A DNA stretch of 64,000 nucleotides from Ereboglobus sp. (GCA_029974595.1 JARKRC010000058.1:1-64000), one strand, 5' to 3'. Positions 5,057 to 23,083 are shown, counted from the first letter of the stretch. The notes: generated from the sequence alone by a model not told the origin. A program made the numbers and translations.

Positions 5057-5950
5057 TTATTTTGGTGGCACGGCATCTGCGAGCGGCCAGACGGCGAGCC
5101 AGTCTCGCAGGAGATCGCGCCAGCGCCAGCTTACGTCCGATGCATAGGCAAAAAGCCGTCCGTGCCCGCCGCGCGGGAAAATGTGCAGTTCGGCCGGCAC
5201 GCCGGCAGACCAGCAGGCGCGCGCAAAGAGGATGCTGTTTTCGGGCGAAATGAGATCGTCGTCCGCCGCGTGGAAGATGAATGCGGGCGGATTTTCCTTG
5301 GTGACGTGAAGTTCGGGCGAGAGGGCGGCCTTCAGGCTTTCAGGGGGCGAGTCGCCGAGGAGGCGGCTGAAGGTTTTCGATTTTCCGGTTTGCCCGAGCA
5401 CGGCGGAGATGACGGGATAGGCGAGAATAAGGCGGTCGGGGCGGGCGGAGACGCTGTCCGCGAGGTCGTCGGATGCATCGCGGTAAAGAGTCGGGCGCGT
5501 TGCGACGAGCGCGGCGAGATGCCCGCCCGCGCTGCCGCCCATGAGCGCGAGGTTTTGCGCGGGCACTTTCAGTTCCGCAGCGCGTGAGCGAAGGAGGCGT
5601 ATTGCGCGCGTGGCATCGGCGTATTGCGCGGGATGGCGGTTGGGCGCAACGCGGTAGTTTACGACGACGGCGGTGTAGCCGAGGGCGCGGAAGTACTCCG
5701 CGAAGAGGCGTTCGTAGGGGCTGAGACTTCCATAACCGCCGCCGGGACAGATGACGATAATCGCGGGAATCGAGTATTTTTCGGAGATCGGATAAAAGAT
5801 CTCCATGTTCGGGCGCGGGCCTTTGGCAGGATTGTTCGGACTGTCGTCCGGCCAGAGGTTGACGACACGGTGGTTAAGTTCGGCGGCGCCCAAAATTGGC
5901 GCAGCCAGAGCAAGGAGCAGCGTTGCGCAGAGGAGTGTGCTTTTTTTCAC
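5057..5950 (-). CDS. Secreted alpha/beta-hydrolase esterase (BD-FAE / acetylxylan esterase-like)
   Basis: An esterase/lipase-fold protein of 297 aa that probably removes acyl groups from glycans. Seen motifs: the oxyanion-hole segment CPGGGYGSLS, the nucleophile elbow GGSAGG, an acidic residue in AADDDLISPENS and the histidine in PRGGHGRLFAY. The ORF track runs upstream to 6037, into the autotransporter. A GTG at 5950 gives VKKSTLLCATLLLALAAPIL, a good signal peptide, and places the start 11 bp after the autotransporter stop, so I use it. Gene order suggests cotranscription with the GH95-like and GH127 genes. Related enzymes include feruloyl and acetyl esterases; specificity cannot be read from sequence. 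Confidence 0.8.
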   Translation of the reverse strand: MKKSTLLCATLLLALAAPILGAAELNHRVVNLWPDDSPNNPAKGPRPNMEIFYPISEKYSIPAIIVICPGGGYGSLSPYERLFAEYFRALGYTAVVVNYRVAPNRHPAQYADATRAIRLLRSRAAELKVPAQNLALMGGSAGGHLAALVATRPTLYRDASDDLADSVSARPDRLILAYPVISAVLGQTGKSKTFSRLLGDSPPESLKAALSPELHVTKENPPAFIFHAADDDLISPENSILFARACWSAGVPAELHIFPRGGHGRLFAYASDVSWRWRDLLRDWLAVWPLADAVPPK

Positions 5951-5960
5951 GGCAATGTTT

Positions 5961-8900
5961 TTACCAGAAGAATCCGCAGCCGAGGTCGAGGCTGAAGCCC
6001 TTGGTGCGCTCGCCGAAGCCGCAGGAGACTTTGGCATTCACGCCGAAGTTGCTGCCGATCTGCATGATTGCGCCGATGTCGACGATGCCTTTGCTGCCGC
6101 CGAGATCGTTGTTATAGACTCTGTCGCCGACGGCGATCCCGGTGGCGCCTTTGAATTCGTAGTGGTAGCTGGCGCGGAGGAAGGGGACGATTTTCCAGCC
6201 GGGTTTGAGTTCGCGTTCGAGCCAGATGCGCATGCCGAGACGGCCTTCAAGGGAGTCGGCGCTGTCGATGGCATAGGTGCGATCCAGATAATCGGTGGCG
6301 TTGTTGATGTCGTGGGTTTGCCAGGTGAACTGGAGTTGGGGTTCCCAGTGGATGGGGCTGTTGGTATTCTTCTTGAAGGAGCGTCCAATTTCAAGGGCGC
6401 CGGCGATGCTGTCTCCGTTGGTGCTGAAGGTTGGGTTGCCGGGGACTTTGATGTCGTAGTCCTCGGAGCCGGCGCGGACGAGGAGATCGACATACCAGTT
6501 GCCGATGACGCAGGTGCCGTAGATGCCGTAGCCGGTGGCCTTGGTCTTGGTGCTGGTATTGCCGGAAATTACGGCGCTTTGGCTCATGTCGGAGGAGATA
6601 TTGTCGTAGAACGCGCCGAGAGTGAGGCGGCCTTTGCCGATTGCTGTGCTCCAGTCAATGCCGACTTGAGCGCCATAGGTGGAGATGTCGGAGTCGCGGT
6701 AGGAGCTGAGTTTGATTTGTTCGTCAGTCATGATGCCGTTGACCCAGGCTTGGAATGTGTGCGGGGCGGTGGCGCGGTTGGTGACGAGGCGCTGGCTGAG
6801 GGATGCCATCGAGGCTTTGCCGGTCATGATGGAGGCGGCATCGACACCGAGGAGGAGGGGGAGGGTGGACGAGCCGCCCTGGCTGTAAGTCCAGGTGCCG
6901 TCGGGATTGCGGATCAGCGTGCGAAGCAGGCCGTTGGTGAGTTCGATGGGGGCGCAGTTGATCTCGGCGGTGACAGATGCGGGGTCGGTGGTGGTGAGCG
7001 GGGTGACGTTGCTCCAGTCGGCGTCCCCGGTGATGGCGGTTTGCTGGCTGAATATGATGTTCACGTTGCCGGTGACGCTGCCGGTGACGTTGAGTTCGTC
7101 GCAGAGCACGGCATTTCCATCGGGAGTGGCGCCGATGGCGAGAAGAATGCTGCCATTGTCAGAGGCATAGTTGCCGTTGATGGAGACTTTGGCGTAACTG
7201 CTGCCGCGGATGCCATCATTGCCGATTTGCAGGACGCCTTTGTTGGTCATGGTGAAGGCGGCACCCCCGGTTGTGAGGGCGGCTGTTGTTGGAATCGCCA
7301 AGACTCCTTGTTTGGCGATGGTGACTGCGTTGGAGGCTCTGACGTTGCCTGTAATTGCCAGCTTTCCGGAATTGACTTCCAGTGTGCCGATATCGGCCGA
7401 ACCGGCAAAGGTCAGCAAACGGGAGCCTGTCTTTGCGAGCGTGGCGTTGGGGCCCGTGACGGTTCCCGAGTAGGTGAAGTAAGCGACGGAATTGTGCAGT
7501 GTCGCGATTTTGCCATCCGCGATAACGATGTTGCTGTCCAGCGAGGCATAGTCCGCGGTTGTCATGAGCGTGCCGCTGCCAACGAAGGTAATGGGCGCGC
7601 CGGCGGTGTAAATCTGGTTGGAATTGGCGAAAGCGATGGCGCCGCCGTGGATGTCAATGCCGCCGGTGAACACATTCCCGGCGGTATTGGCAAAGGCGAG
7701 CGTGCCGGCACCGCGTTTCACGAGTTTTCCCTCGGGGTTGGTGACAGCAGAGACACCGCCGACTTCGATGATGTGGCTGGCATTGGCAGCGATGCCGCCT
7801 GAACCGGTAAAGGTGTAGCTGGCATCGCCCTCAACCCACATGTCGGATACGTTTACGCCGTTGGGGTTGATTTCGACGTTGAGGGCGCCGGCAGCGCTGC
7901 TGAAGATGACACGGTCACCGCCGCCGAAGCGGGTGACGCCGCCGAAATCGGTCCAGTTTTCGCTAGTCAGATTCCATGTCGTATTGCCGCTGGCGCCGGC
8001 CCAGGTCATGTCACGCGACATGTCCGCGCTGGTGATGACGAGGAGGTTGGCTCCGGATTGCATGAGCAAGCCGGACTGGCGTCCGACCTCGGCGGGGACT
8101 TCGCCGTTGATGGTCAGCGTGATGTTTCCGTAGAGATTGCCGATGCTGCCGAGGTTGAAGGTGCCGCTTTGCACGATGCCGATGTCGATGCGGTTGTTGC
8201 CTGCGAGTGCGATCGTGCCGCCACCGGCAAGGTTGATGCGGTCGCTGAGGCCGTAGCCGTCGAGGCCGGCGCCGATGTAAAGATCGATGTCGATTGTCCC
8301 GCCGTCGAGGAGAGTCACGTTGTCGGTGAACGCGAGTGTCTGCGGGGCTGATGTGCCGGAGCCGACGCTGATTTTGGCGGCGGTGAGCGGCGTGGAAAAT
8401 GTGCCGGAGCCGGCGAGCGTGAGGCCCGTGCCGAAGGAAATGGGGGAGGCAGAGTCGAGAGAGACGATTCCGTTTTCGATTGCTTCGAGCACGGTGCCAT
8501 TGGCGAAGGTGATGCTGCCGGCGCGGAGCCGGCCATTGATGGCGAGGGTGGCGCCGGATTTGACTTCAAACGAGCCGGCATTGTTTGACACGCCGTAGAT
8601 GGCCCCGCCGGAAAGCTGGAACGTGCCCTCCTCGACAGTGGTGTTGGCAACGACATTTGACGCATGTTCGCGGAAGATGACCGAGCCGGCGCCGGTTTTG
8701 TTTACGGTGAGCACAGTGGTGTCGCTTGCGGAGATGGCGTCGTGGAAGCGAATGGCCCTGCCGGCCCCGGCATTCAGCGAGAGCGTGCCCGTGGCTGCGT
8801 TAAAGTGGATGGCGTTGCTCGTGCCCGCGGTGGTGATGCTGAGTCCGCCGCCGGTGGCAAGCTGGGAAGAGTCGATCACGGCGCCACTGGTGTTGCCTTC

Positions 8901-10274
8901 GAAGAGGATGTCGCCGCCGGCGGCATTGAGGGCGAGTTCGGATTGTCCGCCGAGGTAGATCGCGCCGCCGTAGGTTCCGGATGTGTTGTTTGCGAATGTG
9001 AGTCCGGCCACGCTGGTGATGATCGCGTTGCCGGTCTGGATGGCGCCGCCGTTGGCACCGGCGATGTTGCTGGAGATGGTGCCTGAGGCGGCGATGTCGA
9101 GCGAGCCGACATTAAGAGCGCCGCCAGCGCTCCCGGCGTGGTTGCCGGCGATGTCGAGAACGCCGCTGCTGATGGTGAGTGCGTTGTTCACGCGAAAAGC
9201 GCCGCCATTGGACACCGCGCTGTTGCCTTCGAGGGAGAGGCGGGCCGCCGAGAAATCAATGGCTCCGCCCATGATTGCGCCGCCTGCGGCGGCGGCGAAG
9301 TTGTCCTTGAAAGTGACGGTGCCTGAGACGCCATTGAATGTGACCTTGCCAGCGCTGGTCGCGTAGATGGCGCCGCCGTCACCGGCCGCCTTGTTGCCTT
9401 CAAGCAGGGCGTCTCCGGAGAATGCCGCCGAGGCGCCACCGACGAGCATGATGGCTCCGCCCGTGCCGTTTCTGGCTGTGTTTCCGATGAGGGCGGCCTC
9501 TTTTTCGAAAACCACTTGACTGCTGGTGTTGGCAAAGATGGCCCCGCCTTGGTTGGCGGCGGTGTTGCTGAAGAAGAAAACGTCGTTTTCGAAAGTGAGC
9601 ACGCAGGTTGCGGCGGCTCCGGCTGAATAGATCGCGCCACCGTTGTGTGTCGTGCTGAACGTGCCGGTGGCGGCCGTGTAGCCTGCGCGACACTGATCGA
9701 AGATGACTGTGCCGGTGAATGTCAGCGAACCGTTTTGTATCGATATGGCGCCGCCTTGCATGGTGGCGCGGATGTTGGTGAATATGGCGTCGCCATTGAT
9801 GACGAGGTGTCCGGCCGCGGCGGAAGCCACGTAGAGAGCGCCGCCTTGGTTATTGTAGACTATGTCACCCAATATTACGCGGTCGAGGGTCAGCGAGGTG
9901 CGCGCGGCTTCGTAGCGCATGAGGCGAACGCCGATCGCGTTGTTTTGCATAAGCGCCCATGTGCCGGGGTCGGCATCCTCCTGTTTGAAGGTGATGTTCG
10001 AGCCGCTGCGGACATCGTAGGCGCCGACGGTTACCCATTCATTCACAGTGAGCGTCCTGCCGTCAGCGAGCGTGACGCTGCCGCTGCTGCCGGAGATTTT
10101 GAAAACGTCACCGTCGGCAAAAGCGGTTGTCGCGGGGATGGGGCTGTCAGAGGTCAATATGTATTCGGCCGCCATGAGCGCCGGGCCGAATGACGCGGAG
10201 AGTAGGAGCGAGCACGCGCAGCCAAGGGCGATCACGTGGTGTTTGACGAAGCGGAGCAGATGAGAGGTTTTCAT
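5961..10274 (-). CDS. Autotransporter with Pmp-type GGAI repeats
   Basis: A type V secreted surface protein of 1437 aa. The start is ATG 10274 (MKTSHLL...), followed by a long signal peptide ending near ALMAAE; the 48 residues added by the track look non-coding. Residues about 100-530 carry at least eleven GGA[ILF] repeats (GGALYVA, GGAISIQ, GGAIYSA, GGAIFAN and so on), as in chlamydial polymorphic membrane proteins. The middle contains autotransporter-associated beta-strand repeats such as GKLVKRGAGTLAFAN. The last 280 residues form a beta-barrel of alternating hydrophobic strands ending in GFFW, a BAM-type terminal aromatic. It likely displays a beta-helix on the cell surface, as adhesin or glycan-binding scaffold; no enzymatic motif was seen. 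Confidence 0.9.
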   Translation of the reverse strand: MKTSHLLRFVKHHVIALGCACSLLLSASFGPALMAAEYILTSDSPIPATTAFADGDVFKISGSSGSVTLADGRTLTVNEWVTVGAYDVRSGSNITFKQEDADPGTWALMQNNAIGVRLMRYEAARTSLTLDRVILGDIVYNNQGGALYVASAAAGHLVINGDAIFTNIRATMQGGAISIQNGSLTFTGTVIFDQCRAGYTAATGTFSTTHNGGAIYSAGAAATCVLTFENDVFFFSNTAANQGGAIFANTSSQVVFEKEAALIGNTARNGTGGAIMLVGGASAAFSGDALLEGNKAAGDGGAIYATSAGKVTFNGVSGTVTFKDNFAAAAGGAIMGGAIDFSAARLSLEGNSAVSNGGAFRVNNALTISSGVLDIAGNHAGSAGGALNVGSLDIAASGTISSNIAGANGGAIQTGNAIITSVAGLTFANNTSGTYGGAIYLGGQSELALNAAGGDILFEGNTSGAVIDSSQLATGGGLSITTAGTSNAIHFNAATGTLSLNAGAGRAIRFHDAISASDTTVLTVNKTGAGSVIFREHASNVVANTTVEEGTFQLSGGAIYGVSNNAGSFEVKSGATLAINGRLRAGSITFANGTVLEAIENGIVSLDSASPISFGTGLTLAGSGTFSTPLTAAKISVGSGTSAPQTLAFTDNVTLLDGGTIDIDLYIGAGLDGYGLSDRINLAGGGTIALAGNNRIDIGIVQSGTFNLGSIGNLYGNITLTINGEVPAEVGRQSGLLMQSGANLLVITSADMSRDMTWAGASGNTTWNLTSENWTDFGGVTRFGGGDRVIFSSAAGALNVEINPNGVNVSDMWVEGDASYTFTGSGGIAANASHIIEVGGVSAVTNPEGKLVKRGAGTLAFANTAGNVFTGGIDIHGGAIAFANSNQIYTAGAPITFVGSGTLMTTADYASLDSNIVIADGKIATLHNSVAYFTYSGTVTGPNATLAKTGSRLLTFAGSADIGTLEVNSGKLAITGNVRASNAVTIAKQGVLAIPTTAALTTGGAAFTMTNKGVLQIGNDGIRGSSYAKVSINGNYASDNGSILLAIGATPDGNAVLCDELNVTGSVTGNVNIIFSQQTAITGDADWSNVTPLTTTDPASVTAEINCAPIELTNGLLRTLIRNPDGTWTYSQGGSSTLPLLLGVDAASIMTGKASMASLSQRLVTNRATAPHTFQAWVNGIMTDEQIKLSSYRDSDISTYGAQVGIDWSTAIGKGRLTLGAFYDNISSDMSQSAVISGNTSTKTKATGYGIYGTCVIGNWYVDLLVRAGSEDYDIKVPGNPTFSTNGDSIAGALEIGRSFKKNTNSPIHWEPQLQFTWQTHDINNATDYLDRTYAIDSADSLEGRLGMRIWLERELKPGWKIVPFLRASYHYEFKGATGIAVGDRVYNNDLGGSKGIVDIGAIMQIGSNFGVNAKVSCGFGERTKGFSLDLGCGFFW

Positions 10275-10360
10275 GGATTTGTCATTCGGGTGTGGGGATT
10301 TACGAAGATGACGCACGGAGAGGTGCAGCCAGAGGGTGATGAATGCAGCTGGAGCAGGAC

Positions 10361-13300
10361 CTATTTTTTTCGGAGCGCGCGAATGAGGAGCAGGCCCGGG
10401 AGCGCGATGATGAGCCATAGCGACGGCGCGCCGCCGCCGCCGCCTTTGTTGGGCGACTTGCCGTCATCGGGCGGCGGTTGGGGGTTGGGCGGAGGATTTT
10501 GCGTGCCGTAAACATACAGTGTGGAAACGGTGTTGTAGTCATCGTCGGCGATGCGGCGGATGGCATGGTTGCCTGTGTCGGCGATCAAGAGGCTGCCGTC
10601 CTCCGCGATTGCGATGGCCGTGGGGTTGTTGAATTGCGCGACGGAGCCGTGGCCGTCGGCAAAACCGGGCGCGCTGCCGGCGATCGTCGTTACCGTGTGG
10701 GAAAAATACGCGCGGATGAGAGAGTTGCCCGAGTCGGCGATATAGACAACGCCCCCGCTGTCCATTACGAGGCCTTTGGGCGCGTTGAAAGCGGCTTGGG
10801 TGAGGGCGTCGCCGTCCGTGGCACCCGGAACGCCGGATGCGCCGGCGAGCAGGCTTACCACGTTTCCGTTGGCGTCCTCATCAGTGAAGTGGGGGTCCGT
10901 GTCGACGAAGCGGATGGTGTGGTTGCCGGTGTCAGCCACATAGAGGTTGCCGGCGATGTCCACGGCGACGCCTGAGGGGCTGTTGAACTTGGCCAGCAAG
11001 GCGGCGCCGTTGGTATCGCCGGCGACACCCGCGCCGGCGACGATGGAGACCGCGCCGTCGGCGGAGATTTTTTTGATCAGGTGGTTTTGTGTGTCGGCGA
11101 TGTAGGTTTCGCCCGATGCGGCGTGGTGCGAGGCCACGCTTGCGGGGGCGGCGAGGGTGGCGTCGGGGCCGGAGCCGGTGGTGGTGACAATCCCGTCGGC
11201 TGTCAGGGAGCGCAGGGCGTTGTTGCCGCTGTCGGCAACGATGAGCATGCCGGCGTTGTTGATGGAAAGTCCCTTGGGCGTGTTGAATTGAGCGGCGGTG
11301 CCGGTGCCGTTTGCCGAGCCTGGCGTGCCCGACTGGCCGGCGAGTGTGGTGATGGCGCCGTTGGGCGCGATTTTCTGGATGATGTGCAGCGTGGCGTCGG
11401 ATACGTAGATGTTATATGAGGTCGTGCCCGAATCGGTGACGACTCCCGACGGGGAGGGCATGTAATTGGGAACAACTTTGATCATGGTGGCTTCGCTGCT
11501 TTGCTGGCCGAGTTCGTTTTGGGCGACGCAGCGATATTGCCAGCCGTCTTTGCCGTCGGGAATCAGTATGGTGAGTGCGTCGGTTGATGTGCCCGCGTAG
11601 TCCGCGCTGTCGGTAATGTCGGTCCACGAGCCGCTGATGCTCGTGCGAACCTGCCAGCGATAGGTGGCCGCGGGGCGCGCGACGGCGTTTGCAAAGATGA
11701 CGACCGTCTTGCCGGACACCACGGTTTGCTGGGCGCCGGTGTTGGGGAAAATGGGGGCGGTGTTGAACAAAATTTCGTTGGGCGCCTTCACCTGGCCCCA
11801 TTCGGTGCGCACGATAACATCGCCATTGCTGGTGCCTGCGGGAGCGTAAACGAGCAGCTGGGAGGCGGTGCTGTTTATGCGATCGATTTCCACGGCCACG
11901 CCGCCGATCAGGACTTCCTTGATTGTGCCGTAACGGACGCCGTTGATCGTGATCAGATCGCCGGGATAAACGCCCGCGCCTTCTTCTTTACCGGTGTAAG
12001 CGACGGAGGTGATCGTGGGTTTGTCCTCGGCGTTGGCCAGGCCGGCTTTCAGGCGAATTGCATAGGTATCGAGGGTACGGCTGAGCCGGTAGGTGTTTGC
12101 GTAGTCGTTGTATTTTCCAACGTAAATGAACATGTGGTGCATGCCGTTCTTCTCATCGACAACAGAACCGCCGGGGTGAAAGCCGTCCTGGTAGGCTTTG
12201 GTGACGCCGGCAGCGGCGACAGCGCTGCCGCCGAGGATGATGCCCTGCCGTTCTATGAGTGTGCCGTCGAAACGCCACTCGGCCGAGCCATTGAGCAGAT
12301 CGACAGGATCAATGCTCCAAATGTTGAGCGAGTTCATCGCCTGGGACGGATCTTCCGAGAGCGGGATTTCCACGCCCGAGCCGTTTGTGGGGCGGGTCTT
12401 GCCAAGGCCGCCGCCCCAGCGGTGGCTTTGTATGACTTCGAGGCGTCCGGTTTCGGGATTATGTATGACTTCGGGCGTGTCGTGGGCTTCCCAAGGCTGT
12501 CCGTTTTTCAGGACGAACGGATCGTAACCATTGCCAACGATGTTGGTTTTCTTGGTGACAAACTTTGTTACTATAGCATCGAAAACGGTGCCTTTTTCGT
12601 GTTTATAGACGTTTTGGGTATATACAAACCGGGGATCGGTCACGGTGAGCGTGCTGCTTACCACGGTGGTGCCGCTTACATAGGTGGACATGCTCATCGC
12701 GGTCGAACCTGTTCCGATAATCGTGGTCTTGAGCGGAATTTTTGCGGAGCCGGTGGTTATCGCGTATGTGGTACCGCTTTCCACCGTGGTGCCGGTGATT
12801 ATGGTCGAAGTGGACGTCCTGGTAGCTCCTAGGAACCCGTAGGTATCCGTTTGTTCGCGGGTGAGTATGAGCATGTGCCCGCTCCCCCAGGTGACCAGCG
12901 TCGGTTCGACACCGCGGTTTACCTGGGTGGCGGAATTTTTCCACCCGGTGCGTGACCATGTCACGCCATTGGTCGTGCGCGCCAATATATTATTATCGTT
13001 CACTCCGGATGTGGATTTGCCAAAAGGCATCAAGAGGCCGAAGTCGGGATGCCGGACCATGTTCGGACCAACGTGGACGGGATCATGGAGCGGGATGTTT
13101 ATTTTGGAGAGCGCCTGGTCCTGCTCGGTCCAGCGCACGCCGCCATCATCGGATGTATAAACACGATAATTAAAGCGCGCCTGCGTGCTGACCGGGGTGT
13201 ATTCCGTGGCATTTGCAGCGTTGTCAATGTCGTATTTTGCAGTCACGACAACAAGGCGCGGCTTCAACGTTGTGTCGCCGCCGGGATAAAGCCAATTCAT

Positions 13301-13840
13301 GGCATGCATGCCAAGATAATCGTAATTGCCGGGGAAGCGGATCGAGGGCGTGCTGGCGTTGTTGTCATGATCGACAACGGGATTTATGCCAAGAACGGGA
13401 GTCGCGGTCTTTACGTTTTCGGGGAGCCAGGCGCCCATGTTTCCGTCCGCGTAGATGACACGCCGGCTGTTGTTGGGCCTGGATTTGTAGCTGGATGGAG
13501 AGTGGTTGAAGAGGTTGCGAATCAGCACCACGGTGCGTTCGTTGCTTGCATTCCCTTCGATCGCCCAGGGGAACCGCGTGGCCACGGGCCAGCCCTGATG
13601 CTTGTACTCCACATTGTCCATGATGGAGGGGCCGCGAAGCACCGGGGCGATTTCCATCAATCCCGCGTTGCGCATCTCCTGCACTTGTGCGGAGCCGCTG
13701 CTGGTGAACTCGAAATCGGCCAGCGTGGTATCGTCAAGGGGATCGGCCTGTGCCTGCATGGAGGACTGGCACAGCATTGAGGCCGCCCAAACGGCGATGA
13801 AGACCCGGAGGGATTTTTTCGCGTTTATTACTGATTTCAT
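10361..13840 (-). CDS. Large exported BNR/sialidase-like protein with TIG, Ig-like and NHL repeats and a CTERM-type tail
   Basis: A 1159-aa protein with a signal peptide (ending near SMQAQAD). Residues about 50-600 resemble a sialidase-type beta-propeller with Asp-box-like segments (YTSDDGGVRWTE, ARTTNGVTWS), but I see no YRIP arginine motif, so catalysis is uncertain. About 615-700 is an IPT/TIG domain (VYPGDLITINGVRYG), 705-795 an Ig-like domain, and 800-1100 a run of NHL repeats (GLSINNAGMLIVADSGNNAL). The C-terminus is proline/glycine rich (PPPDDGKSPNKGGGGGAPS), then hydrophobic (LWLIIALPGLLLI) and basic (RALRKK), like GlyGly-CTERM or PEP-CTERM sorting tails. It lies between the two autotransporter genes, in the same operon. 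Probably a cell-surface glycan-binding or -cleaving protein. Confidence 0.78.
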   Translation of the reverse strand: MKSVINAKKSLRVFIAVWAASMLCQSSMQAQADPLDDTTLADFEFTSSGSAQVQEMRNAGLMEIAPVLRGPSIMDNVEYKHQGWPVATRFPWAIEGNASNERTVVLIRNLFNHSPSSYKSRPNNSRRVIYADGNMGAWLPENVKTATPVLGINPVVDHDNNASTPSIRFPGNYDYLGMHAMNWLYPGGDTTLKPRLVVVTAKYDIDNAANATEYTPVSTQARFNYRVYTSDDGGVRWTEQDQALSKINIPLHDPVHVGPNMVRHPDFGLLMPFGKSTSGVNDNNILARTTNGVTWSRTGWKNSATQVNRGVEPTLVTWGSGHMLILTREQTDTYGFLGATRTSTSTIITGTTVESGTTYAITTGSAKIPLKTTIIGTGSTAMSMSTYVSGTTVVSSTLTVTDPRFVYTQNVYKHEKGTVFDAIVTKFVTKKTNIVGNGYDPFVLKNGQPWEAHDTPEVIHNPETGRLEVIQSHRWGGGLGKTRPTNGSGVEIPLSEDPSQAMNSLNIWSIDPVDLLNGSAEWRFDGTLIERQGIILGGSAVAAAGVTKAYQDGFHPGGSVVDEKNGMHHMFIYVGKYNDYANTYRLSRTLDTYAIRLKAGLANAEDKPTITSVAYTGKEEGAGVYPGDLITINGVRYGTIKEVLIGGVAVEIDRINSTASQLLVYAPAGTSNGDVIVRTEWGQVKAPNEILFNTAPIFPNTGAQQTVVSGKTVVIFANAVARPAATYRWQVRTSISGSWTDITDSADYAGTSTDALTILIPDGKDGWQYRCVAQNELGQQSSEATMIKVVPNYMPSPSGVVTDSGTTSYNIYVSDATLHIIQKIAPNGAITTLAGQSGTPGSANGTGTAAQFNTPKGLSINNAGMLIVADSGNNALRSLTADGIVTTTGSGPDATLAAPASVASHHAASGETYIADTQNHLIKKISADGAVSIVAGAGVAGDTNGAALLAKFNSPSGVAVDIAGNLYVADTGNHTIRFVDTDPHFTDEDANGNVVSLLAGASGVPGATDGDALTQAAFNAPKGLVMDSGGVVYIADSGNSLIRAYFSHTVTTIAGSAPGFADGHGSVAQFNNPTAIAIAEDGSLLIADTGNHAIRRIADDDYNTVSTLYVYGTQNPPPNPQPPPDDGKSPNKGGGGGAPSLWLIIALPGLLLIRALRKK

Positions 13841-13861
13841 GTTTTTCCTTTTCGTTAATTG

Positions 13862-16800
13862 TTACCAGCTCATGCGCACGATGCCGTTGAGGGTGTGGCG
13901 AACCGTGTCGTTGTCGTGAATGCCCATCGGTATGTAGTCGAAATCGTAGGCGAAACCGAAAAACACACGGTGGCTGAGGGCCATGCGCAGGCCGACACCG
14001 CACGTGATGCCGCTGCCGTCGTATTTGTCCCCGCGGATGGGCATGCGCGCGGCGGGATAATCGACCATCGTTGCCCAGATTTCGGATTGGTCGGTGTTGA
14101 GGTTTTCGCGCCAGCCGATGCGGACATCGACCATGCCGGGCTGGCCCCAGGGCATTTTGATCTCGCGGTTGATATCGACGGCGAAGACGGCTTCAAGGGC
14201 ATAGGCGCGCATACCGTCGAGGCGGACGGCGCCGACGCCGGTCTCGCTGTATTTGCGGAGATTCAGGTTCATGTAATGCAGGCCGATATTGGGGCGGAGG
14301 CCGCCGGTTGCGAAGGGATGCAGCATGTAGCCGATTTCGAAGCTGGCTCCGAAGCTGTCGATGTCGTAGCCGCCGGTGACAATATTGCCCTGGTCTTCGC
14401 GGCGCACGGTGTCTGCGGAACCAGAGCCTCCGAGAAGATCGAGCGATGCATAAAAGTCGCCCATGCGCTTCGCGCCATAGGCTCCGAAGTAGATGGTTTC
14501 TATATCGGTGGTGGCATTGTTGGTGGTTTCCAAGTTGGTGTTGTTGAAGCCGCCGTAGACGCCGAGCATGTAATTGTTTTTCGTGATCCAATCGTAGCCG
14601 ACCATGGCGGCATAGGTGCGGTCGGTGTAGCCGAGGTGGTTGATGTCGTCGCCGTATTCGGCGAATGACCCCATGAAACGCGCCCAGGGAGCGCCCGAGG
14701 TGATGCCGGGCTTGCGATCGACGACCGGCGTGAGGAACTCCTCGCTGATGTGCGAATAGATGGCGCGCATCGAAGCGAGCATCGAATCGAAACCGACGAC
14801 GATGTCCTTGCCGGGTTCGAGGGCCATGTTGTAGGCGGTGAGCTGGAGTTTTTTGCCGTCGATAATATCGACAACCATGAACATGCCTTCCTGATTCGGA
14901 TTATAATACGGCATGTTGGGAATGCCGCCTTCGGCGATGGCGGCGGTGTAGATGCCCGTGGGGAGAAGCGCGCCGAGGCGGATCTCGCCGTTGTTGATAA
15001 ACTCCATTGAACCGGCGAGCTTGAGCGCGGTCATTTCGTAATAGTTGGCGAGCACGAGGGCTCCGCCGTCGATGATCATGTTGCGCGCAGTGACTTCGGG
15101 CTTGATGATGCGCAACACACCGCCTTGGCGAACGACAACGTCGGAGCCACTGCCGCCGAGGGCGTTGACTCCTTCGATGCTCAGATGGGAACCGCTGCCG
15201 ACTTCGAAATCGCGCAGCACGTTTGCGCCGCGAAGGGTAAGGGTGCTGGAGGTGAAGAGCACGCGGTCGCCTTTGAGGATGCCATTGACGTCGCCGCCTT
15301 CCACGCCCCGGAATTCAAGCACCGAACCGACCTTTATGGTGACGAGGTCGGAAGCGGATGCAGCGCGGCGCATGATTAGATACGGCACGTCGACGTTGAG
15401 GTTGGCATAGGAATTCCTTCCGGAGAGTATGGCCGTGCCTGTGCCGGCGATGGTGAGTTCGTTATTGCCGGTGATGTCGCCTGAGAACTCAACCTGTTGT
15501 CCGTTGGTCTCGATGGTCGTGCTGTATTCGCCCATCGCAATGCCGTTGGGAATATTAAGACCAGCCGCCTCGATGCTCAAAACGGGATTGGCCGTGTTGA
15601 TGGTCAGCGCGCCGGCGCCGAGCGCGGCACTATTGGCAAGGCCGAGTGTGCCGCCTTCATATGCAATACCGCCGCTGTGGGTGCTGGCGCCCGAGAGCGT
15701 CCATTTGCTCGCGCCCGCCTTGGTGACTTTGCCTTCACCTGAAAAACTGCCGGCAAAGGCCGCATCGCCAGCGTCGATGTTGACCTTCAGATCGGCCGTG
15801 CGGAGCTCGATGGTTCCGACGCCGTCGAGCGTGGCAATCGACTGGTTGTGACCGTTGAGATCGAGTGTGGCGCCCGCGTTTACCACGACGGCTGCCGTGT
15901 TGCCGAGGACGTTTTGGGCGGCAAGTTGCAGAATGCCGCCATTGACGGCGAGCGCGCCGGCGTGCGCGGAAATATCGGCTTCGAGCACAAGCGTGCCCGC
16001 GCCTGTTTTTGCAAGGGTGGAATCGGCCGCGCCGTCCACGGCGCCGCCGAGGGTCATGGTGTTTCCATTGCTGTCGAAGGAGCCGGTTTTTCCGGATGCG
16101 ATGCTTACGGTGTCATTGATGGCAACGGCGCTGCCCGTGGCGCGTATGATGGCATCGCCGGTGAAGGTGATGCCGGCGGTTTCCCCCGTGGCGAGTTGAT
16201 TGCCGTCGCTGATGGCGATGACGCCGCCGCCGATATCGGCGCCGCCCGAGAAGGTGTTCGCACCGTTGGCGAAGGTGAGCGTGCCGGTGCCGGTCTTGAC
16301 GAGCTTGCCGTTGGCGGAGGTGAGCTCGATTTCGCCTGCGGAGTTGGCGAGGACATTGGTTGCGTCGGTGTTGATGCCGCCGCCGGTGAAGGTGTAATCA
16401 GCGCCCCCGCTCACGATCATGTCGGAGATGCGCACTTCGGTGGCGTTGATGAAGATGTTGCGATTGGCCGCGTGGGCGCTGTCGGCGGCGCCGTCAAACA
16501 CAACGTGATCGCCGTAGCTGTAGGCGGTCATGCTGTCGGAGCCGGTCCAGCTGTTTTGCGTGAGATTCCAGACGGTGCCGCTGTTGCCCGTCCAGGTCAT
16601 GAGGCGGGATTTGTCGGACACGGCGGCGAGTTGCAAGATGCCGCTGTTGTTGGACAATGTTGCGGTGAGGCGTCCGCTGGTCGGGAGCGTCATGCCGCTG
16701 ATGGTAACGCTGGTGTTGTTGGCGAGGCCGGTGATATTGCCGAGATTGAACGTGCCCGAGGCGAAGGATTCGAGATCGATGATATTGGAGCCGCTGATTG

Positions 16801-19501
16801 CGGATGTGCCGGTGCCGATCAGGCGGTCGCTCTTTTTGTAACCGACCTCGGCGTCGTCGGAGAAGAGGCCGACGCGGACAATACCGCCGCCGGTCATTTC
16901 GAGGTTGTTTACCGTGAGCGTGCCCGACTGCGCGGCGGAAACACCGGCATCGAGCATCGCGCCGGATGCGATTTTGACGCCGCCGTTTGTGCCCGCTGTC
17001 CCGATGCCGCCGAGTATGACGCCGGAAGCGACAGTGACTTTGCCTCCGAGCGTGGCATTGGCGGTCGCGAGCGTGATGACGCCTGCTTCGAGGCTGGCAT
17101 TGCCGGTGTTTGCAGAGCTGTCCCCAGTGAGGCGGAGGGCGCCGGCGCCGGTTTTGCGGAAGGTGGAATCGGCGCCGCCCGAGGTGAGCGCGCCATTGTA
17201 AACGAGCGTGCCGCCCTGGTCCACGATCAGGTCGGCGGTTTTTCCGGCTGCGATGCCCATGGCGCCGGTGATGGTGCCGCTGGTGTTGACGGATTTCATG
17301 GCGTGGAGTGTGGCGGATTCAATAAACGTGATGCCGCTTGTTCCGGTGCCGAGCTGGCCTGCGTTGCCAAAAGTGATCTGGCCGCCGGAAATATCGATGC
17401 CGCCGGCAAAGGTGTTGGCCGCGTTGTTGGCAAAAACAAGCTCTGCGTTGCCGCTTTTCACCAGTTTCCCGGTGGGGGCGAATTGCGCGCTGCCGACCGC
17501 GCCCGCGCTCGCGGTGATGCCGCCGTCGCCGCGGAACTCGTAGCGCGCGGTGCCGCTCACTTCCATGCCGGAGGTGGAGACGCCGCCGGTTTCGATGGTG
17601 ATGGTGCGGTTGGCGGCGTGGCCTGCATCGGCGGTGCCGTCGAAGATCACGCTGTCGCCGTTGTAGAAACGGTTTTCGCCGCTTGCGGACATGTCGGCCC
17701 AGTTTCTTTCCGTGGCGGTGGGGCGGCGAAACCATGTGGAGCCGTCGGCCCCGGTCCATTTCATCTGGAGGTTGTTCACCGTGTTGCTGACGATGAGCTG
17801 TTTGTTGACACCATCGACGGTGAGAGCGCCGCTGCTGCGCGGATTGGATGCGACGCCGTCGATGGTGAGCGTGAGCTGGCTGAGGTTTACGGCGCCGGTA
17901 TTCCATTTTGCGAGGACGAAGGTACCGGTGGCCAGGAGGCCCAGGTTTATGGTGCCGCTCCCGACGAGGGAGATATCGTTCACTTGGAGAAAGCTGGCCG
18001 AGCCGCTTGCGAACAAATCGTGACTGATCATGAAGCCGTCCAGCATGAGGAGGCTGCCGCTGATGATGAGTTTTTCCGCGTCAACGGCGGTTTCCGTGCC
18101 GACTTGCAGGAATGCATTTGTCGTGGCCGAGACAAAGGTCTGGTTCGGGCTTGCGGAGATCGTGTTGTTTGTCCTGAGCGTGGTCAGCGTGCCCGATCCG
18201 CCGAAAGTGGCGCCTGAATAGATGTTGATCACGCCGCCGAGCGATGCGTTTTGGTTGCCAAGAATCAGCGAGCCAGCCTGCACATTGGTGGTGCCTTGGA
18301 AATGCGAGTTGTCGGCGTTGAATATCAGGCGTCCGGCGCCGACTTTGTCCATGATTGCTTTGTAACCATTGGCTGAGTCGGCCGTGGCGATCGAATCGAG
18401 CGCGGTGTCGTTTCCTGCGCGGCCAATGGAGAGCGTGACGTCCCTGGCGATATTAAAGCGAAGCATGCCGAAGTTATTTGTGAAATAAAAACCGCCGTTT
18501 GCGGCTTTCGGCGTGCGCGTGGCCAGGTATGTGCCGCTGGTCACTTCCGCGGCGGTTATTGTCGATGCGGCGGTTGCCGATGCGGCGGTTCCGAGGGCGG
18601 CATTGTTTTCATATACAATGTGCTGCCCCGCCAGGGCGCTTGATAGCGATATGACGATGGGCTTGGCTGCATTGCCGATGCCCGAGTGGTCGTCGATGAA
18701 GCCGCCGCTCACGCCCACCCAGTTCCCGCTGATGTTTGTGACATCCTGAAGCATCACATCGGAGGTGTTTATCCTGAACAGGATTGCGGCGCCGCTGTGG
18801 GCGGTGCGGTTGTTGATGAAGGCGGAACCGATGACGGTCAGATCCACCGAGCCTGTGGCGAAGTCGAACACGCCGCCGCCGCCGGTGGCGTTTGCGGTAT
18901 GGGTCGAATAGTTTCCAATGAAGGTGCTGGAAGTTATCGTAGAGGGCGGCCTGCCGGCAATGTTGGAGCGGAAGCTGATCACCCCGGCGCTCCCCCCGGC
19001 GCTGTTGCCTTGGAACAGAACATTGGTAATGCGCAAAAGGCCATTGGAGCCAAGCGTAAAGACACCCCCGATGGTCGCTGCATAATTGTTCATTATGATC
19101 CCATTGTTCAGCACGAGCGTTCCCCGGCTGATATGGCCCACGCCCGAATATGCATTGGAACGATTGTTGCTGAATATGAAACGGCCGCTTTGATCCACGG
19201 CGTTTGGCGCCGGGCGGATGAAAAACATGTCCGCGGATGACGATAAACTTAAATCGAAGATGGTGCCATTACCGGCAGCCAGCAACGTGTCCTTGATTTC
19301 AAAGGTGACGCCGTCGGCTATGTCGTAGGCCTGCGAGGTGCCGAAGAGCACGCGTTTTGCCTTGATGATGCTGATGTCGCTGGTGATCAAGCCGGGCGAG
19401 GGCAGGGCGTTGTCCTGCGCCGGCAGGGTCGCATGAAATCCGGCCGCGGCCAATGCAAGAACGAGCAGCCGGGAAAGCCTTGGGAATATTCTATTTTTCA
19501 T
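13862..19501 (-). CDS. Large autotransporter with beta-strand (PATR-type) repeats
   Basis: A surface protein of 1879 aa. The track starts at 19687, inside the TonB receptor frame. ATG 19501 (MKNRIFPRLSRLLVLALAAAGF) gives a signal peptide and has AAGGA nine bases upstream, so it is preferred. The passenger holds several copies of the autotransporter-associated repeat (GKLVKTGTGTLTFANGANTF, GAGTLVLEAD) separated by W-rich linkers (TWNLT, WTGADGSTWF). The first 400 residues have weaker Pmp-like GG motifs. The last 280 residues form an autotransporter barrel ending in VRMSW. It lies between the TonB receptor and the BNR/NHL gene with gaps of 56 and 21 bp. Its role is probably display or adhesion; the ligand is unknown. 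Confidence 0.9.
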   Translation of the reverse strand: MKNRIFPRLSRLLVLALAAAGFHATLPAQDNALPSPGLITSDISIIKAKRVLFGTSQAYDIADGVTFEIKDTLLAAGNGTIFDLSLSSSADMFFIRPAPNAVDQSGRFIFSNNRSNAYSGVGHISRGTLVLNNGIIMNNYAATIGGVFTLGSNGLLRITNVLFQGNSAGGSAGVISFRSNIAGRPPSTITSSTFIGNYSTHTANATGGGGVFDFATGSVDLTVIGSAFINNRTAHSGAAILFRINTSDVMLQDVTNISGNWVGVSGGFIDDHSGIGNAAKPIVISLSSALAGQHIVYENNAALGTAASATAASTITAAEVTSGTYLATRTPKAANGGFYFTNNFGMLRFNIARDVTLSIGRAGNDTALDSIATADSANGYKAIMDKVGAGRLIFNADNSHFQGTTNVQAGSLILGNQNASLGGVINIYSGATFGGSGTLTTLRTNNTISASPNQTFVSATTNAFLQVGTETAVDAEKLIISGSLLMLDGFMISHDLFASGSASFLQVNDISLVGSGTINLGLLATGTFVLAKWNTGAVNLSQLTLTIDGVASNPRSSGALTVDGVNKQLIVSNTVNNLQMKWTGADGSTWFRRPTATERNWADMSASGENRFYNGDSVIFDGTADAGHAANRTITIETGGVSTSGMEVSGTARYEFRGDGGITASAGAVGSAQFAPTGKLVKSGNAELVFANNAANTFAGGIDISGGQITFGNAGQLGTGTSGITFIESATLHAMKSVNTSGTITGAMGIAAGKTADLIVDQGGTLVYNGALTSGGADSTFRKTGAGALRLTGDSSANTGNASLEAGVITLATANATLGGKVTVASGVILGGIGTAGTNGGVKIASGAMLDAGVSAAQSGTLTVNNLEMTGGGIVRVGLFSDDAEVGYKKSDRLIGTGTSAISGSNIIDLESFASGTFNLGNITGLANNTSVTISGMTLPTSGRLTATLSNNSGILQLAAVSDKSRLMTWTGNSGTVWNLTQNSWTGSDSMTAYSYGDHVVFDGAADSAHAANRNIFINATEVRISDMIVSGGADYTFTGGGINTDATNVLANSAGEIELTSANGKLVKTGTGTLTFANGANTFSGGADIGGGVIAISDGNQLATGETAGITFTGDAIIRATGSAVAINDTVSIASGKTGSFDSNGNTMTLGGAVDGAADSTLAKTGAGTLVLEADISAHAGALAVNGGILQLAAQNVLGNTAAVVVNAGATLDLNGHNQSIATLDGVGTIELRTADLKVNIDAGDAAFAGSFSGEGKVTKAGASKWTLSGASTHSGGIAYEGGTLGLANSAALGAGALTINTANPVLSIEAAGLNIPNGIAMGEYSTTIETNGQQVEFSGDITGNNELTIAGTGTAILSGRNSYANLNVDVPYLIMRRAASASDLVTIKVGSVLEFRGVEGGDVNGILKGDRVLFTSSTLTLRGANVLRDFEVGSGSHLSIEGVNALGGSGSDVVVRQGGVLRIIKPEVTARNMIIDGGALVLANYYEMTALKLAGSMEFINNGEIRLGALLPTGIYTAAIAEGGIPNMPYYNPNQEGMFMVVDIIDGKKLQLTAYNMALEPGKDIVVGFDSMLASMRAIYSHISEEFLTPVVDRKPGITSGAPWARFMGSFAEYGDDINHLGYTDRTYAAMVGYDWITKNNYMLGVYGGFNNTNLETTNNATTDIETIYFGAYGAKRMGDFYASLDLLGGSGSADTVRREDQGNIVTGGYDIDSFGASFEIGYMLHPFATGGLRPNIGLHYMNLNLRKYSETGVGAVRLDGMRAYALEAVFAVDINREIKMPWGQPGMVDVRIGWRENLNTDQSEIWATMVDYPAARMPIRGDKYDGSGITCGVGLRMALSHRVFFGFAYDFDYIPMGIHDNDTVRHTLNGIVRMSW

Positions 19502-19557
19502 AAAGAGGTTCCTTCTTTTATTTAAGATTGGGGATGCGTCTGTTCCTGTGCTCCGTG

Positions 19558-22500
19558 TCAGAATGTTCCCTTGATGCCTATCATGATGTAGGAGGGGATT
19601 ACAAAGCGCTGATACTTCTCGGCATAACCCGGCGTGTCCGCGGCGCGCCTGTAAATGATTTTGTCTTTTGCGAATATGTTTCTCCACGTTATATATGCCG
19701 AGAACGATTTGGAGAAGCTGTATTCCGCGCCGAGGTCGTAGGTGGTGTAGGCCGCCTGGTAATCATAGGTGCCCGCCGGTATGTAGGTTTCATATTCTTC
19801 AACCTTGGTTTTCTTCGTTTCCGCCTGGTAGGCGCAACTGAGCGTGATCGAGTATCGGGGACGAATGAAGTTTACGCCGTACGAAAAAGCGTCCGGGGTG
19901 AATCCTGTGAAATCCTCGGCGTTCGGGCCGGTGACTTTCAGGTGGGTATAGTTCACCCAAAGCTGCATGGTTTTCAGCCACGAAGGCAGGAAGAACAAGT
20001 CCTGGCGATAGCTCAGCTCCAGTCCCGTCAGGCTGGCGTCGCCCACGTTTTCCCAGCGCCGCATTATATATCGGTTTTCCCCGTTTATATAATATTCAAT
20101 GGTTTCATCGGACAACCCGTATAATTTAAGACTATCATAGGTCATCGGCACCAAAGTCCTGGCGAAGAAATTCGTGACGTTCTTTTTATATACGCCTACG
20201 GTGCCAAAGCCCCCCTTCAAATGGTACGAATCCAGCGAAAGATGAAAACTGTCCGCTGTCCAGGGTTCCAGGCCGGGATTGCCAACACTGATGATTCGGA
20301 CATTGACCAGCCCTTCCATTTCTTCCTCCGCGTCCGGCGCCGGTATGGTCATCCCGCCCGCCACGTATCTGACATCGGGGCGCCCGATTGTACGTGCATA
20401 GGCGGCGCGCAATATCAAATTCTCCGTGATGGAGAAATTGGCATTGAGGCTGGGGTACAGGTCCTTGTAGGACTGGCCGGCGTGGCTTGCGCGCTCCTGG
20501 TAAACGAGATTGGCGGCCCGCACCGGGTCGTCGTCGATGCCGGGCAGTTTCAGGAAGCGCCCATTCTCATCCTTTATGGGTATGCCCTTGGCATCTTTTT
20601 GATAAATTGCCGACTTGTCCTCGAGCATGCTCCAGCCGTTGAGCTTGGTCCTCTCGAAACGCGCGCCGCCCGTCATGTTGAGGCGGTTTTGGAAAAGCTT
20701 GAGGTCGAAGCGCAGGTAGGCCGAGGAGATGATTTCCTCGAGGCGTACCGAGCCGAGCGCGCGGTCTCTTGGCAGGTCCTGCGCGCCGACGGGAAACCAG
20801 TCCGGATGCTCCTGGTAAAGTTTATACACCTTCGAGGGGTTGATCCAACGGACGGGGTTTCCGTTTATCGTGATATTTACATCCTCATCTATGACATCGT
20901 AATTGCTTGCCCGCAGCGGAAGCGCGCCGCCGGCGGGCGTAAAGGTGCGCCTGAGCATAAAACGGCGATCGTCCTTTTCCTCCCTGCTGTAAGCCCCGCC
21001 GAGCTTGAATGAAAAATTATGCCGCACGTGCCGCTCGATATCGATGCGCCCGGTGTAGAGGGTCGTTTTGTAGGTGCCATCCTCCTCGGCGACTCCCGTG
21101 ATGTCGTAATTGCCGCCATCATACACGTTGAAAGCCTCGCCATAGTCGTTTGTCACGGAATAGAGCACGGGCAGGATGCTATCCGTGGAGTTGATGCCGT
21201 CGCCGCGTATGCTCAGGCTGCTGACCGCGGCGTTCACGCCTGTAAAATAACCCTTGTTCAGGCTGGTGCGGATTCTTGTGGCGGACGAATAGATTGCCTG
21301 TCCGTCAATGTTCCATGCGCCGCGGTGCCTGTAGCGCAGCGTCATGTGGGTCCTGTCCGTGGAGTCTTCATAATTGAGCGCCGCATTACCGCCCATGATC
21401 ATGCCTCCGCGGGTCGAGTTGGTATGATAGGAGGTCTCAGGTTTCTTTTCCGCGTAAGTGGCGTCGCCCCTGGGGTCGTTGCGCACCCTTTCGCTGAAGT
21501 TTGTCGTGATGCGGCTGTTTGCGCGCTCGGTCACATTTTCCCTGTACTGGATTGTATAGGCAAGGGAATCATTCCTGGACATTTTCCATTCGACAGTGGC
21601 CTGCATGTTTTCCGTCGTCGTGAGCTCGGCAAGTTGCGTCCATTGCGCGGAAGTCATGGCGATGTCCTTGGTGCCGTAAAATTCGGGCGGGAAGCTCCAC
21701 TCCGGGCCGCCCAAGTTTATATATTTGTCCTCGGTTCTTAAATTCCATGTCGCGGTTTCCTGCGGTGTGTTGTTGGTGCCGCGTTGCCTCCATGTCCTTG
21801 TGAACCCGAGACTGAAGGCCAGGCGGCTGCTGAGCGGATAGGTAAGGTTCGCGGTAAACGAAGGTTGCTTGAATTTCGGCGATACTTGGGAGATCGGCTG
21901 TTTTGAACCCCCGTCGAAGCCAAGTCCGTTGGCACTGTCGAAATTCATAAAAAGCCGGTAGCTGAAGCTCGGTTTTTTGGTGCCCAGGAGGCTTTTGGTT
22001 ACGAGATTCAATGAGCCGCCCAGGCCTGTCGCCGGCATGTCGGGCGTGGGCACCTTGGTAACCTCGATGCGCTCGATGTTCACCATGGGAACTTCCAGCA
22101 GGGACAGCGTGCGGCTGCTCTCTTCGCCGACGCCGGTGCTGGCGACATTGCCGCCGTCGAGCTGCACGGCGGACATCTCGGGCGGGAATCCGCCGAGCGC
22201 GAGACTGCCGGCGTTTTCTCCGTCGTCAACGATGGCAACACCGGGCATGAAACGTATGTAGTCGCCGATGTTTTCCTGGCCCTGGTCGGAGAGTTCCTCG
22301 AAGGCGATGACGTTTTTGATGTTCGGCGCGTGACGCTGCTCGTTCATCGCCAGCGCCTGGGCGGTCATCAGTCTGTCTGCGACAACGCTGAATTTTTCCA
22401 ATACGATGAGATCGTCTTTTGGCGTCGTCTGTTCGCGCACCAGAACGAAATCGCGTTTTAACGAAGCATTTGGCGGCACCGTAATGGTGGCGGTTTGCTT

Positions 22501-22788
22501 GTCGAACCCGAGATAGGTGACTTCCAATTGTGCTTCGCCGGCGGGAACGCCAGTCAGGCGATAGTAGCCCTCATCATCAGTGAGTGTTGTTTGAAATGCC
22601 GGGCGTATTGTCACCTTGACCTTGCCGATGGGCAGATTCGTGGCTGAGTTGGTGACATTGCCTTCGATTGTGCCGGTGGCCTCTTCTGCGGCACCGGCCA
22701 ATGGCGCGACAATAAACGCGAACAGGCAAAACAGGCCTTGTGCAAAGGCGCGGCATGTGCGGGCGTGACGGGGAGAATTCCTATTCAT
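19558..22788 (-). CDS. TonB-dependent outer-membrane receptor
   Basis: A gated outer-membrane importer of 1076 aa. It has a signal peptide (ending LAGAAEE), then a carboxypeptidase-regulatory-like domain at about 40-125 (GTIEGNVTNSATNLPIGKVK), a plug domain at about 150-270 (DYIRFMPGVAIVDDGENAG; VNIERIEVTKVPTPDM), and a 22-strand barrel ending in the aromatic IGIKGTF. No SusD-like partner is encoded next to it, unlike Bacteroidetes loci. It heads the minus-strand unit that continues with two autotransporters and glycan enzymes; the 295-bp upstream region carries two hairpins, one matching an operator-like palindrome. The substrate is probably an oligosaccharide released by the neighbouring enzymes (inference). 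Confidence 0.92.
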   Translation of the reverse strand: MNRNSPRHARTCRAFAQGLFCLFAFIVAPLAGAAEEATGTIEGNVTNSATNLPIGKVKVTIRPAFQTTLTDDEGYYRLTGVPAGEAQLEVTYLGFDKQTATITVPPNASLKRDFVLVREQTTPKDDLIVLEKFSVVADRLMTAQALAMNEQRHAPNIKNVIAFEELSDQGQENIGDYIRFMPGVAIVDDGENAGSLALGGFPPEMSAVQLDGGNVASTGVGEESSRTLSLLEVPMVNIERIEVTKVPTPDMPATGLGGSLNLVTKSLLGTKKPSFSYRLFMNFDSANGLGFDGGSKQPISQVSPKFKQPSFTANLTYPLSSRLAFSLGFTRTWRQRGTNNTPQETATWNLRTEDKYINLGGPEWSFPPEFYGTKDIAMTSAQWTQLAELTTTENMQATVEWKMSRNDSLAYTIQYRENVTERANSRITTNFSERVRNDPRGDATYAEKKPETSYHTNSTRGGMIMGGNAALNYEDSTDRTHMTLRYRHRGAWNIDGQAIYSSATRIRTSLNKGYFTGVNAAVSSLSIRGDGINSTDSILPVLYSVTNDYGEAFNVYDGGNYDITGVAEEDGTYKTTLYTGRIDIERHVRHNFSFKLGGAYSREEKDDRRFMLRRTFTPAGGALPLRASNYDVIDEDVNITINGNPVRWINPSKVYKLYQEHPDWFPVGAQDLPRDRALGSVRLEEIISSAYLRFDLKLFQNRLNMTGGARFERTKLNGWSMLEDKSAIYQKDAKGIPIKDENGRFLKLPGIDDDPVRAANLVYQERASHAGQSYKDLYPSLNANFSITENLILRAAYARTIGRPDVRYVAGGMTIPAPDAEEEMEGLVNVRIISVGNPGLEPWTADSFHLSLDSYHLKGGFGTVGVYKKNVTNFFARTLVPMTYDSLKLYGLSDETIEYYINGENRYIMRRWENVGDASLTGLELSYRQDLFFLPSWLKTMQLWVNYTHLKVTGPNAEDFTGFTPDAFSYGVNFIRPRYSITLSCAYQAETKKTKVEEYETYIPAGTYDYQAAYTTYDLGAEYSFSKSFSAYITWRNIFAKDKIIYRRAADTPGYAEKYQRFVIPSYIMIGIKGTF

Positions 22789-22884
22789 AATGCAAGAATT
22801 TTTGATGATGCAGTTTTTGAGGCGGATGGGCTGGGCGCTTGGGAGGGCAAAAAAGCGGAGGGCGTATCTTTGTATGACTTAGTC

Positions 22885-22908
22885 TGGCATCCTAGTTGCC
22901 GGATGCCA
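22885..22908. repeat. Inverted repeat upstream of the TonB receptor unit
   Basis: TGGCATCC and GGATGCCA form perfect 8-bp arms around an 8-bp spacer. It lies between the glycosidase stop (23084) and the receptor start (22788), 12 bp from the TGGTTCCC palindrome. It could act as the terminator of the upstream unit or as a second protein site; no U-tract is visible. Confidence 0.4.
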
Positions 22909-22919
22909 TATCTCTCTTC

Positions 22920-22938
22920 TGGTTCCCAAAGGGAACCA
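22920..22938. promoter_or_regulatory. Palindromic operator-like site (TGGTTCCC-AAA-GGGAACCA)
   Basis: TGGTTCCCAAAGGGAACCA is a perfect palindrome of two 8-bp arms around AAA, 132 bp upstream of the TonB receptor start. Two related 19-mers occur in the divergent region 30529-30988 and match 15 and 14 of 19 positions, with the outer TGGT/ACCA conserved. The length and symmetry fit a LacI- or GntR-type dimer site. No regulator gene is in the window. Function is inferred. Confidence 0.5.
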
Positions 22939-23083
22939 TATCGACGGATGCACCTTTACAGATGCTTTACAGGCAACATGTGCGGTTTGATTTGTTAAGG
23001 GAGGGGATTGCGCCTTGGGAGGCGGATGCGGTTTCCGGCAAAGGGGTACAACCGGATGGTGTCAAATCGACCTTTCGCGGGGC

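Follow-up and report, generated by a model that had tools for sequence, protein, structure and literature searches.

A probable glycan-uptake locus without SusD-like_3 in Opitutaceae, with autotransporters beside a large TonB-dependent receptor

The window, i.e., the whole stretch of 64,000 nucleotides that was analysed, belongs to a genome of the Opitutaceae (Verrucomicrobiota; 4.07 Mb, 77 contigs, 96% complete; G000, hereafter the host genome). A run of seven genes extends along its minus strand from position 22788 to position 627, and the features are, in reading order:

22789..23083, no strand: 295-bp gap 5' of the receptor gene, candidate promoter/operator region (sequence, pattern scan)
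19558..22788, minus: TonB-dependent receptor (TBDR), 1076 aa, first gene of the run (PF00593 4.3e-23, PF13620, PF07715; TIGR01782 273 bits, slightly under the cut-off of 310)
13862..19501, minus: autotransporter AT1, 1879 aa counted from an ATG within a longer ORF (PF03797 9.7e-33, PATR 4.5e-21)
10361..13840, minus: protein with BNR-like, IPT/TIG-like (by eye), Ig and NHL parts, 1159 aa (PF01436 1.8e-27, PF07679, PF13088 weak)
5961..10274, minus: autotransporter AT2, 1437 aa (TIGR01414 3e-25; PF03797 5.6e-30 in the genome search; PF02415 Chlam_PMP 1.2e-13; TIGR01376 2.5e-12)
5057..5950, minus: alpha/beta-hydrolase esterase (BD-FAE; pectin acetylesterase PaeX-like), start codon inferred (PF20434 1.3e-26; NF041902 139 bits, cut-off of 550 not reached)
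2714..5038, minus: GH95 glycosidase (PF22124 1.7e-18, PF21307 1.6e-13)
627..2717, minus: GH127 glycosidase of the beta-L-arabinofuranosidase / aceric acid hydrolase type (PF07944 1.4e-46, PF20736; NF049879 93 bits, under cut-off)

An initial sequence-only reading had placed two very large autotransporters (ATs) in one run with a TBDR, a BNR/NHL protein, an esterase and two glycosidases, and this description was borne out: all of the genes were found, and the stated lengths and gaps are correct. Counted from the probable start codons, the intergenic gaps along the run measure 56, 21, 86, 10, 18 and -4 bp, and the seven genes are presumably co-transcribed. The TBDR has an N-terminal CarboxypepD_reg domain followed by plug and barrel. 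The 295-bp gap contains two inverted repeats, TGGCATCC-8-GGATGCCA at 22885-22908 and GGTTCCC-3-GGGAACC at about 22920-22937, possible operators or the possible terminator of the preceding gene; promoter and terminator scans gave results near shuffled expectation. Upstream of the gap, the same strand encodes an MGH1-like glycosidase (23084-24769) and then a sulfatase (24790-26322). Further on, at 27659-28948, 30989-32371 and 32368-33567, come two genes for MFS transporters and one for a BNR sialidase-like protein (PF13088 2.8e-43), which possibly belong to a larger glycan island. Elsewhere in the window, the minus strand carries McrBC-type restriction genes, i.e., a McrBC-family protein (41927-42970) and an AAA_5 ATPase (43001-45361).

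SusD-type surface proteins serve sugar-uptake loci of Bacteroidetes. The absence of SusD from the present locus, as noted in the initial reading, holds beyond the run: none of its seven genes has a SusD match in Pfam, and PF14322 (SusD-like_3), the one SusD family searched genome-wide, has zero matches across the host genome with a positive Bacteroides control. To our knowledge, SusD is not expected in Opitutaceae, and its absence is thus a trait of the lineage rather than an oddity of this run. The resemblance to SusCD-type polysaccharide-utilisation loci is otherwise considerable, in that a large TBDR with N-terminal CarboxypepD_reg, neighbouring genes for surface proteins, and glycosidases stand in one run, and in that the unit of TBDR and surface partner occurs many times per genome. 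The differences are that the surface partners are here type Va autotransporters and GlyGly-CTERM proteins in place of SusD-like_3, and that AT and TBDR do not stand in a constant order.

Three carbohydrate-active enzymes are co-localised in the run (GH127, GH95 and the esterase), and their families suggest that the substrate is most likely a plant pectic glycan. The earlier suggestion of a mucus-like substrate is not supported in detail, as plant pectic glycans, or glycans containing arabinose or fucose, would suit GH127, GH95 and the pectin-acetylesterase-like enzyme no less well than mucin. A sister locus (L084) encodes a TBDR, an alpha-galactosidase, a BNR/SASA protein, an AT1 relative, a BNR protein, GH95 and an esterase, and a rhamnogalacturonan lyase is found at the L076/L109 locus. 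Since genes of sialic-acid type (NanM, DHDPS, BNR, SASA) stand beside other pairs of AT and TBDR, different pairs probably serve different glycans.

In both AT1 and AT2, the C-terminal PF03797 model is matched almost end to end and the passenger is N-terminal in the same polypeptide. AT1 consists of a signal peptide, a variable beta-helix-like head (residues about 30-350), a conserved PATR stalk and the C-terminal barrel. Its relatives of 1855-1899 aa, which accompany window-like TBDRs in three genomes, are 46-53% identical over the full length; conservation is lowest in residues 30-350 (0.31-0.40) and highest in residues 351-1300 (mostly 0.5-0.69). This is the pattern to be expected if a variable and putatively binding head is mounted on a conserved stalk. 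The passenger of AT2 contains GGAI/FxxN repeats of the Chlamydia Pmp type (PF02415 1.2e-13; TIGR01376 46 bits), which are also present in other ATs of the host genome; a search of the PDB with the AT2 sequence yielded no match. Pfam detects no carbohydrate-binding module in either passenger.

The third gene of the run provides a putative second surface partner. The C-terminus of the BNR/Ig/NHL protein is a GlyGly-CTERM tail (TIGR03501 17.1 bits against a cut-off of 15.5), and the host genome has two rhombosortases (TIGR03902, both over cut-off). Once cleaved by rhombosortase, Vibrio proteins with such tails become associated with the membrane, and crossing of the outer membrane needs a further secretion signal (PMC13393428). 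Type II secretion may export the proteins described here; the candidate secretin covers the whole GspD model but scores 287 bits, short of the cut-off of 351. In common with GlyGly-CTERM/rhombosortase proteins such as Vibrio VesB (PMC6219818, PMC13393428), the proteins of the host have a tripartite tail, Gly-rich, hydrophobic and basic, and a rhombosortase is present; unlike in VesB-type proteins, the tails are attached to Ig/NHL/BNR proteins beside TBDRs and, at several loci, lie within an ORF that continues into the TBDR.

Throughout the host genome, large TBDRs have, as a rule, an AT as their neighbour. The host genome encodes 44 PF03797 autotransporters and 34 PF00593 TBDRs, of which 24 are large (ORF > 780 aa) and 10 small. 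A same-strand AT lies within 10 kb of 18/24 large TBDRs, compared with a mean of 2.7 and a maximum of 9 in 5000 random placements, which take no account of general gene clustering; no large TBDR (0/24) has just an opposite-strand AT within this distance, and 1/10 of the small TBDRs has a same-strand AT. In most pairs, the two genes are only 1-100 bp apart. The pairing is repeated in G001, a genome of the same genus in a single contig of 4.17 Mb (9/20 paired, p about 5e-5), and in G003 (7/11 paired). Of the six large TBDRs that lack an AT within 10 kb, three are neighbours of GlyGly-CTERM giants or fused with them, so that 21/24 large TBDRs have a partner of either kind. Genes around the pairs are related to glycans and include BNR_2 (12/47), SASA, melibiases, pectic acid lyase and NanM. 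For 17/44 ATs of the host genome, no TBDR was detected within 15 kb on their own contig, and ATs thus also have other roles. Just beyond the window, on contig C37, lies a lone AT of 5369 aa with no TBDR near it (L104:2515-18624), and similar giants (4500-7000 aa) are present in G001 and G003. Several TBDRs of G001 (L097:10997-18943, L098, L171 and L178), and the AT1 relative in L097, are each split into two ORFs, reflecting either sequencing errors or decayed genes.

Among named genomes, window-like TBDRs were found at 45 loci, and each of these carries the label Opitutaceae, Opitutus, Lacunisphaera, Opitutae/Opitutia or Verrucomicrobia. The pair recurs in three genomes of the same genus, G001 and G003 among them, and in a second genus. 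In Gx485, Ct408 and Nm470, which the sample codes suggest to be termite-gut MAGs, an AT1 relative stands behind the window-like TBDR, two of the cases being truncated by a contig end; two contigs of G002, of the same genus as the host, are identical to contigs of the MAG Gx485_bin97. Four genomes of the genus have 45, 44, 30 and 23 PF03797 matches, nine other genera of the family have 0-1, and five of these nine AT-poor genera have 16-49 TBDR matches. Compact ATs are present in 14/150 genomes and 8/49 genera of the family, and in three genera such an AT directly adjoins a TBDR. In genus g52, ATs of 787-923 aa lie 57-113 bp behind the TBDR (57-100 bp in G054 and G106; in G084, of the same genus, the neighbour of the AT is not scored as a TBDR). 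G006 has a single AT, which follows its TBDR at a distance of 10 bp and can be aligned from end to end, at 37% identity, with a partner AT of G003. Given the distribution of compact ATs and the pairs in g52 and G006, the pair probably predates the genus and has probably multiplied in gut lineages.

In free-living Opitutaceae, no AT was found in the flanks of the orthologous TBDRs. Transport does not, therefore, require the AT, which is a lineage-specific addition and not an obligate equivalent of SusD. The proposal that the ATs form the surface glycan-handling part of the locus accordingly stands in part: that they belong to the locus follows from the genome-wide rule, the recurrence and the conservation of AT1 with its TBDR, whereas not every AT is tied to a TBDR and the AT does not take the obligate place of SusD.

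Distances between AT barrels correlate with those between TBDRs (r = 0.76, 29 pairs; r = 0.64, 15 pairs within the host genome), and this is due largely to recent relatives. Leaving out the AT1 family lowers the correlation within the host genome to r = 0.30 (p = 0.02); by ranks, the correlation over its 15 pairs is 0.20. The unit probably co-duplicates at shallow depth, with partners possibly swapped at greater depth.

Our preferred reading, to which we assign a probability of about 0.58, is that the run is a glycan-uptake locus without SusD, one of about 20 in the host genome, in which a large TBDR is combined with surface partners (ATs and GlyGly-CTERM proteins) that are delivered by other routes. 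Each AT would use its own barrel to present a beta-helix head outside the cell at the end of a long stalk, and rhombosortase would process the GlyGly-CTERM proteins, with their Ig/NHL/BNR modules, which would remain attached to the envelope. The heads, presumably exposed, and the GlyGly-CTERM protein would then bind the polysaccharide and hold it near the TBDR, possibly in contact with it, while cell-associated enzymes (esterase, GH95, GH127) would trim it and the TBDR would import the resulting oligosaccharides. Points that speak against this reading are the ATs with no TBDR nearby, the AT-free orthologous TBDRs of free-living Opitutaceae, the low correlation once the AT1 family is set aside, the absence of a Pfam carbohydrate-binding module from both passengers, the weak structure models of the heads and the sub-threshold secretin match.

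The main rival explanation, which we consider rather unlikely though still serious, is that the ATs are adhesins or self-aggregation factors resembling Ag43, pertactin or Pmp, which fix the cell to food particles, the gut wall or neighbours; sharing an operon would tie adhesion to the matching diet, with no direct hand-over of glycan to the TBDR. The architecture is that of type Va autotransporter adhesins (AIDA-I, Ag43, pertactin, IcsA), with signal peptide, a predicted beta-helix-type passenger, PATR repeats and PF03797 barrel, and the AT1 stalk matches IcsA by sequence (5ke1, 5.8e-07). AT2 shares with the chlamydial Pmp proteins, from the same PVC superphylum, the GGA(I/L/V) and FxxN repeats (PF02415, TIGR01376) and an autotransporter barrel. 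The heads were predicted by AlphaFold to be all-beta, in models of low confidence (pLDDT 58 and 54); the best fold matches of these models are to generic beta-helix proteins, pertactin, Ag43 and TibA among them, and are not significant (E > 0.001). The many ATs away from any TBDR also favour adhesion, as does the high share of fibrillar-adhesin-like proteins in Ereboglobus luteus and Opitutaceae bacterium TSB47, which are among the species rich in them (PMC8286594). The genomic setting is, however, different: the ATs of the host stand in glycan operons beside TBDRs, dozens per genome, and AT2 belongs to a carbohydrate operon of a gut-type Verrucomicrobium and has PATR repeats mixed in. The adhesin explanation is opposed by the tight pairing of ATs with large TBDRs and not with small ones, by the compact ATs directly beside TBDRs in three genera, and by the correlated distances of the two families. 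Akkermansia muciniphila is also a gut Verrucomicrobium with several autotransporters, nine autotransporter-barrel proteins having been detected in its outer membrane, and in the accessible portion of that report pairing with TBDRs is not described (PMC4960237).

That the passengers are themselves enzymes, i.e., beta-helix lyases or glycosidases displayed on the surface to degrade the polysaccharide, is improbable. The enzymatic character of the locus would agree with such a function, and beta-helix enzymes (PL6, GH110, GH28) occur among the fold matches of the heads; these matches are weak and generic, however, no catalytic family is matched in the passengers in Pfam or NCBIfam, and conservation in AT1 is lowest in the head, where an active site would lead one to expect the reverse. 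Accidental neighbourhood, which the abundance of both families (44 ATs and 34 TBDRs) might be expected to produce, can be dismissed, as it is refuted by the excess over random placement and by the repetition of the pairing in other genomes and another genus, and as the shared strand and gaps under 100 bp make a chance linkage untenable even though the placement ignored gene clustering.

Glycan uptake through TBDRs is understood mainly through SusD lids. No prior description of AT-TBDR pairing was found in the literature on autotransporters of Verrucomicrobia and Opitutaceae, searched largely among papers free of subscription, and SusD-less glycan-uptake loci with AT partners are apparently a variant of TBDR-based uptake loci that has not been described before. 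If the preferred reading is correct, nutrition is among the functions of secretion systems that are best known from virulence adhesins, and gut Verrucomicrobia have a use for their large sets of autotransporters. It also raises the question whether the AT head sets which glycan the neighbouring TBDR imports.

At several loci, a GlyGly-CTERM protein reads without a stop into a TBDR that has a signal-peptide-like stretch of its own. Such ORFs were found in the host genome, G001, G002, G003 and G054, i.e., in two genera, whereas in five other genera no TBDR ORF exceeds 1301 aa; on contig C25 of the host genome, a GlyGly-CTERM protein reads in the same manner into a second NHL protein. The cases are:

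L159:1582-15441, GlyGly-CTERM protein and TBDR in a single ORF
L076:9773-18985, GlyGly-CTERM protein and TBDR in a single ORF
L183:3781-13002, GlyGly-CTERM protein and TBDR in a single ORF
L184:3228-14354, GlyGly-CTERM protein and TBDR in a single ORF
L185:2710-12030, GlyGly-CTERM protein and TBDR in a single ORF
L186:3664-13758, GlyGly-CTERM protein and TBDR in a single ORF
L199:10245-17999, GlyGly-CTERM protein and TBDR in a single ORF
L205:2-9430, GlyGly-CTERM protein and TBDR in a single ORF
L161:2204-17011, GlyGly-CTERM protein and second NHL protein in a single ORF

The junction consists of the Gly-rich tail, a hydrophobic stretch, basic residues and a second hydrophobic stretch that mostly ends in a signal-peptidase-like site, and by these features the GlyGly-CTERM-TBDR ORF looks like a polyprotein. 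Several of the cases apparently arose independently; L076, L183 and L185 (in the host genome, G001 and G003, each with an adjoining compact AT) are mutual nearest relatives. The 3070-aa ORF of L076 had seemed, by Pfam, to be a fusion of a passenger-repeat domain to a TBDR, an interpretation rejected in view of the GlyGly-CTERM tail and the second signal-peptide-like stretch behind it, which indicate two proteins in one frame. As a tentative extension, which we regard as possible but somewhat doubtful, gut Opitutaceae may have an alternative to SusCD in a three-part outer-membrane machine of TBDR, partner AT and rhombosortase-anchored Ig/NHL protein, in which the surface protein and the TBDR are made at several loci as a polyprotein; rhombosortase and signal peptidase would cleave it at the internal GlyGly-CTERM and the signal peptide that follows, so that the two products would arise in equal amounts. 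Directly upstream of a putative TBDR polyprotein, L109:5080-11427 encodes a protein of 2115 aa with a family 11 rhamnogalacturonan lyase, Ig, a PATR repeat and NHL repeats, which has a GlyGly-CTERM-like tail followed by extra residues.
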